A DNA stretch of 26,116 bases from positions 1 through 26,116 of IMG/VR virus record IMGVR_UViG_3300027833_000196; one strand, 5' to 3'. Below, in pieces: positions 23,833-25,801 of this stretch (the stretch's first letter is position 1; each line of letters starts with the position of its first letter). The DNA comes from a virus. Below the pieces are notes generated by a model. It saw only the letters and a list, made by a program, of their open reading frames with translations, ran no database searches and was not told the origin of the DNA. Position numbers and translations under genes: made by a program.

Positions 23833-24012
23833 ATGAAAGTAAGTTACGAAGAGTTAGTAGAGTTTTTCGGTTCACCAATGGAAGTGGCTGAATACTTTAA
23901 TTGTAAAGTCCAGGCTGTCTATCAGTGGAAAGAAGATGTTCCTGACACTAGAGCTAGAGAGTTTAAATTAGTTAAGGAGCTAAGGAGTGCGGTATGTCAG
24001 CAGACAAGCTAG
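23833..24012 (+). CDS. Cro-like HTH repressor
   Basis: This 59-residue protein starts at the ATG at 23833 behind TTGGAGG. The sequence ELVEFFGSPMEVAEYFNCKVQAVYQWKEDVPDTRAREFKL has the pattern of P22/lambda Cro-type helix-turn-helix proteins, with the FGS turn, the QAVYQW recognition helix and VPDTRA following. It probably binds operators in the adjacent 140-base intergenic region and represses one or both divergent promoters. No CI partner is visible in the window. It overlaps the next gene's start by 19 bases. Confidence 0.87.
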   Translation: MKVSYEELVEFFGSPMEVAEYFNCKVQAVYQWKEDVPDTRAREFKLVKELRSAVCQQTS

Positions 24013-24386
24013 TGTCAAAACTTAATCACGCCAAGGAAGTCAAGGCTAGGAAAGGTCACACTAGAAGTTGGGTGGCATTATGCCCCTCACACGATGACAA
24101 AAGCCCCTCACTTTGTATCGATGAGGCAGACAATGGCAAAATCTTAATCAAGTGCTGGTCTGGCTGTGGTGCTAATGAAGTTATTGATAGCGTTGGAATG
24201 AAGTATCACGAGTTATTTCCCGATGATGGGTATGAATCTCACATTAAACGCAGGATAAAACCTATTGGTTATCACGAATTGCATTTAGATATAGTGCAGA
24301 GCAGGAGAGAAAAAGGATTGAAGCAGACAAAAGAAGATAAGAACGATGAACTAGCATCGTTTATGGCCCTGAGAGGCTCTGTATGA
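23994..24386 (+). CDS. Stand-alone primase-type zinc-finger protein
   Basis: This 130-residue protein has the CHC2-type zinc site of DNA primases: CPSHDDKSPSL (Cys30, His33) and KCWSGCGANEV (Cys54, Cys58), then a helical segment and a basic region. There is no TOPRIM domain, so it cannot make primers alone. It may recognise template for the following helicase, or be a separated primase half. It is encoded between Cro and the O-like gene, and overlaps the O-like start by four bases. The ribosome-binding site AAGGAG lies upstream of the ATG. Strong family call for the zinc domain; role inferred. Confidence 0.83.
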   Translation: MSADKLVSKLNHAKEVKARKGHTRSWVALCPSHDDKSPSLCIDEADNGKILIKCWSGCGANEVIDSVGMKYHELFPDDGYESHIKRRIKPIGYHELHLDIVQSRREKGLKQTKEDKNDELASFMALRGSV

Positions 24387-25021
24387 GCGCACAGGCGACA
24401 TTCTGGGCTTGGGGTATACAAGTGCCTTCCTCTGAGAAGTTAGTGCTTTTATGCCTATCAGATTGTCATAATGGTGATACAGGCCAGTGTAATCCTAGTG
24501 TGAATTACATCTCAAGAAAGACATCGCTAGATAGAAAAACTGTACTGAAGGCTTTGCGAGTTTTAAGTGATCAAGAAGTGCTTAGTAGAATTAAGGTTGA
24601 GGGTTCCAGTAATCAGTATTTCCTTGCGGTAGAGGCAGTACCAAATATGGGACAAGGGGTGGCCCAAATTTCCCCAAAAGCAGTACCAAATATGGGACGC
24701 AAACCTATAAGTAAACCTAAAAAGAACCTACACTACGAAAATGGTGATCTTGAAACAGCAGAAACGATCTACAATTTGATCTTAACCTTGAATCCAAAGC
24801 ATCGAAAACCAGCTATGGAATCTTGGGCTAATGAGATCAGGTTGATGAGAGAAAAAGATAACTGTACTCATAGCGAGATACTAAGTTTATTTAGGTTCGC
24901 CAATAGCGATGATTTTTGGAAGTCAAATATCCTGAGTCCGAAGAAGTTAAGGGATAAGTGGGATGTATTAACGATTAAGAAAGGCGATAGCAGACAGCAA
25001 GAACCATCAATATGGGTTTAA
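24383..25021 (+). CDS. Replication initiation protein (lambda O-like)
   Basis: This 212-residue protein has an N-terminal winged-helix part (about 10-72: PSSEKLVLLCLSD, NPSVNYISRKTSLDRKTVLKALRVL, i.e. a helix-turn-helix of the phage replication O/DnaD kind). A linker carries two copies of AVPNMG at 85-90 and 100-105. The C-terminal region with DDFWKSNILSPKKLRDKWD (about 176-194) is typical of phage O-like loaders. It probably binds the origin and helps load the helicase encoded just after. The linker DNA is repetitive and may itself be the origin. RBS and ATGA coupling link it to the primase-type gene. Confidence 0.78.
   Translation: MSAQATFWAWGIQVPSSEKLVLLCLSDCHNGDTGQCNPSVNYISRKTSLDRKTVLKALRVLSDQEVLSRIKVEGSSNQYFLAVEAVPNMGQGVAQISPKAVPNMGRKPISKPKKNLHYENGDLETAETIYNLILTLNPKHRKPAMESWANEIRLMREKDNCTHSEILSLFRFANSDDFWKSNILSPKKLRDKWDVLTIKKGDSRQQEPSIWV
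24635..24698 (+). other. Candidate replication origin: three iteron-like repeats
   Basis: GCAGTACCAAATATGGGAC occurs twice, at 24635-24653 and 24680-24698, exactly 45 bases apart. Midway, CCAAATTTCC (24664-24673) is a partial third copy, so cores begin at 24641, 24664 and 24686 (about 22-bp spacing, near two helix turns). Each full copy is an imperfect dyad. Lambda O has four iterons inside its own gene, so this is a natural place for an origin. The repeat also encodes the linker motif AVPNMG. Confidence 0.5.
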
Positions 25022-25031
25022 GGAGAGAGTA

Positions 25032-25730
25032 ATGTGGGTACTACCAAAGAACTACCAACCGTCATCAGCTTTTGTAGCGGATACGGTGGAATCGAAAGAG
25101 GAATTGAGCTTGCTGGAGTCGAGCATCGAGTCATCGCTTATGTGGAGATCGAAGCCTTCGCCATTGCGAACCTGGTTGCTAAGATGGAAGCGGGTGAACT
25201 GGATCCCGCTCCTATTTGGACGGATCTTAAAACCTTCCCAGCACACTTATTTCGAGGAGCAGTTGACATTATCACTGGCGGGTATCCTTGCCAGCCGTTC
25301 TCAGCAGCAGGGCAGCGAAAAGGAGAAGATGATCCAAGACACTTGTGGCCAACAATTAGGGAGCATGTTAAAACCATCAGACCAGATAGATGCTTTTTCG
25401 AGAATGTCGAAGGACACATATCGCTTGGACTCTCCAGCGTCATCAGCGACTTGGAAGAAGATGGTTATGCAGCAACGTGGGGAATATTCTCAGCGCGTGA
25501 AGTTGGCGCAGCACACCAAAGAAAGCGAGTCTATATCTTGGCCGACTCCCAGAGCGAGCGAGTACAAGGATTGCGGGCCAGTAGGAAGCAAAAGCCAGGT
25601 GCACATGGACAACAAGAGTTACTTGTGCGCCAAGGTAAAAGATCCGAGTATGCCAAGTGGCTGCCTGAACCCAGAGTGGGTAGAGTGGTTGATGGGTGTG
25701 CCGATAGGGTGGACAGAATTAGACTTTTAG
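25032..25730 (+). CDS. Alternative-frame ORF overlapping the methyltransferase
   Basis: This 232-codon open frame starts with ATG at 25032 two bases upstream of, and overlapping, the GTG of the methyltransferase (ATGTG). It runs through most of that gene in the other frame. The start has the better spacing from AAGGAGAGAG. Its translation is Ser/Trp/Lys-rich (MWVLPKNYQPSSAF ... ISWPTPRASEYKDCG ... LNPEWVEWLMGVPIGWTEL). The last two motifs resemble, from my memory, conserved blocks in database proteins annotated as phage cytosine methyltransferases. Either this is a real overprinted gene, or those records are shadow frames of the same enzyme. Not provable from one sequence. Confidence 0.35.
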   Translation: MWVLPKNYQPSSAFVADTVESKEELSLLESSIESSLMWRSKPSPLRTWLLRWKRVNWIPLLFGRILKPSQHTYFEEQLTLSLAGILASRSQQQGSEKEKMIQDTCGQQLGSMLKPSDQIDAFSRMSKDTYRLDSPASSATWKKMVMQQRGEYSQRVKLAQHTKESESISWPTPRASEYKDCGPVGSKSQVHMDNKSYLCAKVKDPSMPSGCLNPEWVEWLMGVPIGWTELDF

Positions 25731-25801
25731 GTAATGCTGTAGTTCCGCAGACAGCAGCAAAAGCATGGGAAACACTAGGAGAGAGAAATGCAAAAGATTG
25801 A
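25034..25801 (+). CDS. C5 cytosine DNA methyltransferase
   Basis: This 255-residue enzyme transfers a methyl group from S-adenosylmethionine to carbon 5 of cytosine. Motif I FCSGYGG (13-19) binds the cofactor. Motif IV GGYPCQPFS (82-90) carries the catalytic Cys86. Motif VI is ENVEG (123-127), motif VIII QRKRVYI (162-168) and motif X GNAVVPQTA (233-241). The target-recognition region between VIII and X is only ~60 residues, short for the family. Start is GTG, placed by the ATGTG overlap. It probably protects phage DNA from restriction or marks it. The last 14 bases overlap the helicase start. Codons look GC-richer than neighbouring genes, which may reflect transfer or a second coding frame. 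Confidence 0.92.
   Translation: MGTTKELPTVISFCSGYGGIERGIELAGVEHRVIAYVEIEAFAIANLVAKMEAGELDPAPIWTDLKTFPAHLFRGAVDIITGGYPCQPFSAAGQRKGEDDPRHLWPTIREHVKTIRPDRCFFENVEGHISLGLSSVISDLEEDGYAATWGIFSAREVGAAHQRKRVYILADSQSERVQGLRASRKQKPGAHGQQELLVRQGKRSEYAKWLPEPRVGRVVDGCADRVDRIRLLGNAVVPQTAAKAWETLGERNAKD

Follow-up and report, generated by a model that had tools for sequence, protein, structure and literature searches.

The window analysed here is the 26,116-nt stretch of IMG/VR record IMGVR_UViG_3300027833_000196 (positions 1 to 26,116), the record being that of a tailed phage with terminase, portal, Erf and replication genes. Flanked by a DnaD/O-like initiator on one side and a DnaB-like helicase on the other, two long ORFs overlap on the same strand, i.e. 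a C5 methyltransferase catalytic chain in frame 1, here called alpha, and an overprinted ORF in frame 2, here called beta, which is read in the +1 frame relative to alpha (Table 1). An earlier note on this DNA had described these ORFs, starting at ATG 25032 (232 codons) and GTG 25034 (255 codons) behind one ribosome-binding site, and had quoted two pairs of peptides read from the same bases; the layout is confirmed and the pairs are exact, WPTPRASEYKDC in frame 2 lying over LADSQSERVQGL in frame 1 and LNPEWVEWLMGVPIGWTEL over EPRVGRVVDGCADRVDRIR. The AGGAG core is spaced by 6 nt from the ATG and by 8 nt from the GTG, and most of 78 distinct homologues show a purine-rich site 4-8 nt 5' of the ATG. 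Frame 2 starts with ATG in 76/78 and with GTG in 2/78 of these loci and frame 1 starts with GTG in 78/78, the latter because the invariant Met-Trp (ATG-TGG) of frame 2 forces a GTG. An antisense ORF (25138-25443) overlapping the locus was set aside as lying outside the pattern. Elsewhere in the window, a short ORF (23994-24386) matches phage primases (phrog_6088, 772 aa) over just their first ~80 residues, the zinc-finger part, and a downstream helicase fragment was found in none of the records of six relatives.

Table 1. Features of the overlapping methyltransferase locus (coordinates of the window)
Feature	Position	Strand	Boundaries, basis or remark
alpha (frame 1), C5 methyltransferase catalytic chain, 255 aa	25034..25801	+	GTG 25034 to TGA 25799-25801
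beta (frame 2), overprinted ORF, 232 aa	25032..25730	+	ATG 25032 to TAG 25728-25730
Shine-Dalgarno-like AAGGAGAG, common to both starts	25020..25027	+	sequence
ATGTG overlapping start codons (ATG frame 2, GTG frame 1)	25032..25036	+	conserved in 78 loci
alpha motifs I-VIII (SFCSGYGG ... GGYPCQPFS ... ENVEG ... HQRKRV)	25058..25537	+	frame 1 is the main selected frame here
alpha motif X (RLLGNAVVPQTAAKAW)	25721..25768	+	at and past the functional end of frame 2
beta N-terminal extension, overprinted on alpha catalytic domain	25032..25538	+	sliding substitution profile; invariant residues
beta target-recognition region (WPTPRASEYKDC...) and motif IX	25539..25727	+	frame-2 third-position substitutions; Spartoi gp40 alignment
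motif IX LNPEWVEWLMGVPIGWTEL, frame 2	25665..25721	+	motif scoring across distinct loci

Frame 1 matches the C5 methyltransferase family PF00145 (E 7e-32) and phrog_363 (E 6e-59) and contains motifs I-VIII with PCQ and ENV in order, PCQ and ENVEG being invariant. It does not hold what a single-chain enzyme carries between motifs VIII and X of the same chain, i.e. a recognition region and motif IX. For frame 2 the only strong database match is phrog_1008, annotated as 'DNA methyltransferase' (E 4e-22); Pfam and NCBIfam hold no frame-2 family, and searching PDB sequences with the frame-2 profile returned chance matches only. A link between the two frames was first suggested by phrog_1008, which also weakly matches frame 1 at its motif X end. 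Motif IX was scored in distinct viral and bacterial-genome loci: 148 carry it in frame 2, none carries it in frame 1, and 12 more genome loci show the pattern in neither frame. Motif X lies in frame 1 in 136 of these 148 loci and in frame 2 in nine, three being unscored. Frame 2 apparently represents the part of the frame-1 enzyme that comprises its recognition region and motif IX, a point missing from the earlier note.

This assignment is mirrored in enzymes of phages infecting actinobacteria. Residues 9-192 of Spartoi gp40 from a Rothia phage align to frame 1 of one overlapping locus (L117; E 4e-19), and its residues 217-316, comprising the in-frame recognition region and motif IX, align to frame 2 of another (L092; 35%, E 2e-11); by alignment, one single-chain actinophage protein is the counterpart of two frames in the overlapping loci. 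Spartoi gp40 and Tweety gp72 were examined in full, both being single-chain enzymes with all motifs and a PTP-type recognition region in frame. Their recognition region (PTP...) and motif IX are homologous to frame 2 and their catalytic half to frame 1, but they hold all motifs in one frame and their other frames contain many stops. A query with the actinophage motif retrieved 549 phage records, nearly all of actinobacteria, with motifs IX and X in one frame. In two actinophages the halves are encoded by consecutive, hardly overlapping genes (Sebastisaurus gp34/gp35 and Scavito gp81/gp82). Two further phage genes differ in other ways. Propionibacterium phage B22 gp50 (L248:1-2064) is a single-chain C5 methyltransferase with an intein-like interruption (CFVAGTSVLTHDG ... 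VVHN), which sits directly before the catalytic CQD of motif IV. The methyltransferase of Mycobacterium phage Llama (L155:1198-1957) is annotated as two genes, gp74/gp75, with a +1 offset at their junction; in its near relative Zerg the gene is single and uninterrupted, and the Llama pair therefore reflects a frame change within the enzyme frame itself.

We collected 80 viral loci by the enzyme frame alone, which were therefore not chosen for frame 2, and removed near-duplicates to obtain 51 distinct sequences including the window. Frame 2 is free of stops over the whole overlap in all 51 loci, compared to 691 stops expected from flanking-gene codon usage and 308 expected after shuffling each gene's own synonymous codons; these counts pool related loci as one set and are not independent, identities to the window reaching below 45%, and the flanking-gene controls are drawn from the same loci but are fewer. 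For the window alone, 12.2 stops are expected from flanking-gene codon usage or 6.4 with its own synonymous codons shuffled, and stop-free draws occurred in 0/300 simulations for either kind of expectation. The third frame is full of stops, with 9 to 33 per locus. The length of frame 2 ranges from 232 to over 420 codons across window-type loci owing to a variable middle region, and the window-type frame 2 ends at or just past a conserved LNPxWVEWLMGVPxGWTxL sequence.

The frame under selection differs along the locus. Selection acts mainly on frame 1 over codons 1-165, and the fourfold-degenerate sites of this frame are over-conserved, 0.69-0.75 being identical compared to 0.46-0.51 in flanking genes at equal protein identity. 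Within this part, frame 2 dominates locally at codons 1-10, 31-40 and 141-150, where frame-1 third positions vary less than first positions. In the sliding substitution profile the segments MWVLPKNYQ, IESSLMWRSK and KKMVMQQRGE of the beta extension look frame-2-constrained, and M1, W2, P5, S35, S40, K41, W52, W141, R149 and R155 of frame 2 are invariant. Pairs that are 80-97% identical in frame 2 differ by 0.11/0.10/0.37 per site at frame-2 positions 1/2/3 of the recognition region, and pairs 65-80% identical by 0.20/0.19/0.46; in the closer pair set the identity is 0.61 in frame 1 compared to 0.85 in frame 2. The concentration of changes on frame-2 third positions past motif VIII thus marks frame 2 as the protein under selection there.

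Frame 1 is nevertheless kept open across the recognition region. In 48 window-type loci it contains no stop there, compared to 302 expected given frame 2 and 137 expected from shuffled codons, the third frame actually having 324. A natural control is provided by ten related viral loci (L134, L117, L138, L142 and relatives), in which frame 1 terminates just past motif VIII (QRKRVFIMADS...stop), while frame 2 supplies motif X (DRVDRIRMLGNGVVPATAAKAW) behind an added linker (NSNEWQNNWSGDWEGNTPRTT). In this L134-type clade 109 frame-1 stops are observed and 90 expected, corresponding to the neutral rate. Stop avoidance is lost where frame 1 ends early, and frame 1 is therefore kept open only where motif X must be reached; in these ten loci the overlap was partly resolved. 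Taken together, comparison of the loci at the sequence level shows that both frames are selected to stay open, that the selected frame depends on the region and that the motifs are split between the frames.

The switch of the selected frame from 1 to 2 past motif VIII and back to frame 1 for motif X is also what programmed ribosomal frameshifting would produce, by which a ribosome starting in frame 1 would undergo a +1 shift past motif VIII and shift back for motif X to yield a single chain, and in the clade with motif X in frame 2 one shift would suffice. The window type would need two shifts, however, and frameshifting requires neither an open frame 2 over the first 165 codons, where no stop is found against about 500 expected, nor a conserved frame-2 start codon, yet ATG or GTG stands at this position in every one of the 78 loci. 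Neither does it require an open frame 1 across the recognition region, and within the clade stopping frame 1 the stop distances and stop codons vary and no shared slip site stands out. We consider frameshifting unlikely.

AlphaFold predicts a confident catalytic core and motif X helix for alpha, and the model superimposes on M.HhaI with a Z score of 18 over 190 residues at 3.1 A; residues 175-233, at the site of the missing recognition domain, reach a pLDDT of about 25-37. Beta alone is modelled with a pLDDT of 50 and a pTM of 0.19, which does not support an independent fold, and a chain folding only together with alpha would look alike. Frame 2 could instead encode a separate protein with another role, e.g. 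a regulator or an anti-restriction factor, merely descended from a recognition domain, and its long N-terminal extension, which has its own constraint and is absent from single-chain enzymes, fits such a role. This reading appears improbable given that frame 1 has neither a motif IX of its own nor an ordered recognition domain, the enzyme therefore being incomplete without frame 2, and that in one clade motif X lies in frame 2 as well. A chance shadow ORF, conserved merely through conservation of the enzyme frame, is refuted by the stop counts and the substitution pattern and has next to no probability left: codon choice and amino-acid constraint do lower the expected stops somewhat (6.4 compared to 12.2 in the window), but all 51 loci are stop-free, frame 2 shows a protein-like substitution pattern in the recognition region, synonymous sites are over-conserved, motif IX occurs only in frame 2 and frame-1 stop avoidance is lost exactly where frame 1 is unneeded.

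The earlier note had left the choice between a real overprinted gene with dual initiation and a widespread shadow-frame annotation family. Its chance estimate for the stop-free second frame has the correct magnitude, and the homologues taken together rule chance out. Every sequence test proposed in it favours the real overprinted gene: stops in the second frame are absent from all window-type loci and nearly absent from bacterial-genome relatives, the enzyme frame shows the excess synonymous-site constraint, and ATGTG is kept. The database entries which it remembered do exist, i.e. phrog_1008 and Paenibacillus phages with both frames annotated.

Judged by sequence comparison, the arrangement is a recurrent one, present in bacterial genomes as well as in phages from several bacterial phyla. 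In phages of Paenibacillus, Lacticaseibacillus, Bacteroides, Salmonella and Acinetobacter and likewise of Stenotrophomonas, Microcystis, Microbacterium and Mycobacterium, the methyltransferase is overlain by a recognition region and a motif IX in the +1 frame, the similarity of these annotated-phage copies to the window being far lower. In most of these distant families, e.g. in the Paenibacillus, Lacticaseibacillus and Salmonella phages, stops interrupt the +1 frame within its first ~60 codons; beta would therefore have to start internally there, and the ATGTG dual start is not universal. By frame 1 we also found 80 bacterial-genome loci, 69 of them distinct, in Proteobacteria, Bacteroidota, Verrucomicrobia, Planctomycetes and others. 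The 69 distinct loci contain 3 frame-2 stops in the stretch from motif I to motif VIII compared to 109 expected, with 272 in the third frame; the recognition region of the bacterial-genome loci contains 4 frame-1 stops compared to 136 expected, and 41/69 loci have an ATGTG-type start. A locus of E. coli PCP07014 (L332:1201-1962) is a prophage relative of the Salmonella phage gene, its annotation being that of a pseudogene containing an internal stop. Sequence databases mostly annotate one frame only or label the other 'hypothetical'. Both frames are deposited in GenBank as separate genes for the Paenibacillus phages Leyra (L154; gp61/gp62) and Lily (L164; gp62/gp63, noted as 'g62 internal gene'). 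These pairs and phrog_1008 are deposited frame-2-type proteins, annotated as 'DNA methyltransferase' or 'internal gene'; we found no statement identifying the phrog_1008, Leyra or Lily proteins as the recognition half that the overlapping enzyme lacks, and within the literature searched there is no account of this overprinting in phages.

The closest known system is M.EcoHK31I, and the window would hold a variant of that kind by likeness, its membership being putative. Lee, Kam and Shaw reportedly described in 1995 that the gene of the small M.EcoHK31I subunit lies inside the large-subunit gene in another reading frame. As far as this layout goes, the window is alike in having its small-chain ORF in another frame (+1, 232 codons) within the large-chain gene. 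It differs in that the phage chains would both start at one overlapping ATGTG, frame 2 extending over the gene from the very beginning, and in that no gene for a restriction enzyme was recognised next to the phage methyltransferase. When plasmids and E. coli were searched for a pair resembling M.EcoHK31I, phage-like or unrelated copies alone were returned. M.EcoHK31I (YGGCCR) carries motifs I-VIII and X in its large subunit and motif IX in its small subunit (PMC3404938), a split which, at the level of sequence motifs, is present in the window and 136 distinct loci. The predicted recognition domain of M.EcoHK31I was placed in the large subunit (PMC3404938), whereas the substitution pattern puts the phage recognition region in frame 2. 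The large and small domains of M.HhaI and M.HaeIII divide like alpha (I-VIII, X) and beta (recognition, IX) (PMC3404938). In M.AquI, the cut between the alpha and beta chains falls in the variable region, after motif VIII and before motif IX, the small subunit carrying IX and X (PMC3404938). This two-chain cut resembles the clade ending frame 1 past motif VIII and the actinophage gene pairs, and motifs IX and X indeed lie together in the small chain in ten homologues (e.g. L134) and in Sebastisaurus gp34/gp35. The window type differs from M.AquI in keeping motif X in alpha and in the almost complete overlap of its two ORFs.

These data support, with good though not full confidence, a C5 methyltransferase of two subunits, the specificity subunit being overprinted on the catalytic one and both being started at ATGTG from one ribosome-binding site. 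According to this model, ribosomes at the single Shine-Dalgarno site would start either at the ATG, yielding beta, or two bases later at the GTG, yielding alpha; with one site serving two starts, both chains would therefore come from one message. Alpha would provide the large catalytic domain, consisting of motifs I-VIII, a stop-free, poorly conserved, low-confidence linker and motif X, the linker occupying the place where the recognition region normally sits. Beta would consist of the N-terminal extension followed by the small DNA-recognition domain with the target-recognition region and motif IX. Alpha and beta may then assemble to a methyltransferase marking the phage DNA, presumably protecting it from host restriction. 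What we infer from the two reading frames is that both codons serve for initiation, that the chains form one enzyme and that its role is protective.

In prokaryotes, long same-strand overlaps with a conserved protein in each frame are rare and difficult to prove. Here, two halves of an enzyme would lie on the same bases over 230 to 430 codons, with a built-in control clade freed from one frame. This would explain the apparent lack of a recognition domain in many phage methyltransferases as well as the second 'methyltransferase' or 'hypothetical protein' annotated atop them. The locus offers a direct test system for the use of one ribosome-binding site by two start codons and for the evolution of two proteins on one sequence. 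In the broadest reading, to which we give slightly less than an even chance, these loci may constitute a large, overlooked class of dual-coded two-subunit methyltransferases spanning phages and bacteria of many phyla, in which the overlapping starts would fix co-production of both subunits and the N-terminal part of beta would have a function of its own.
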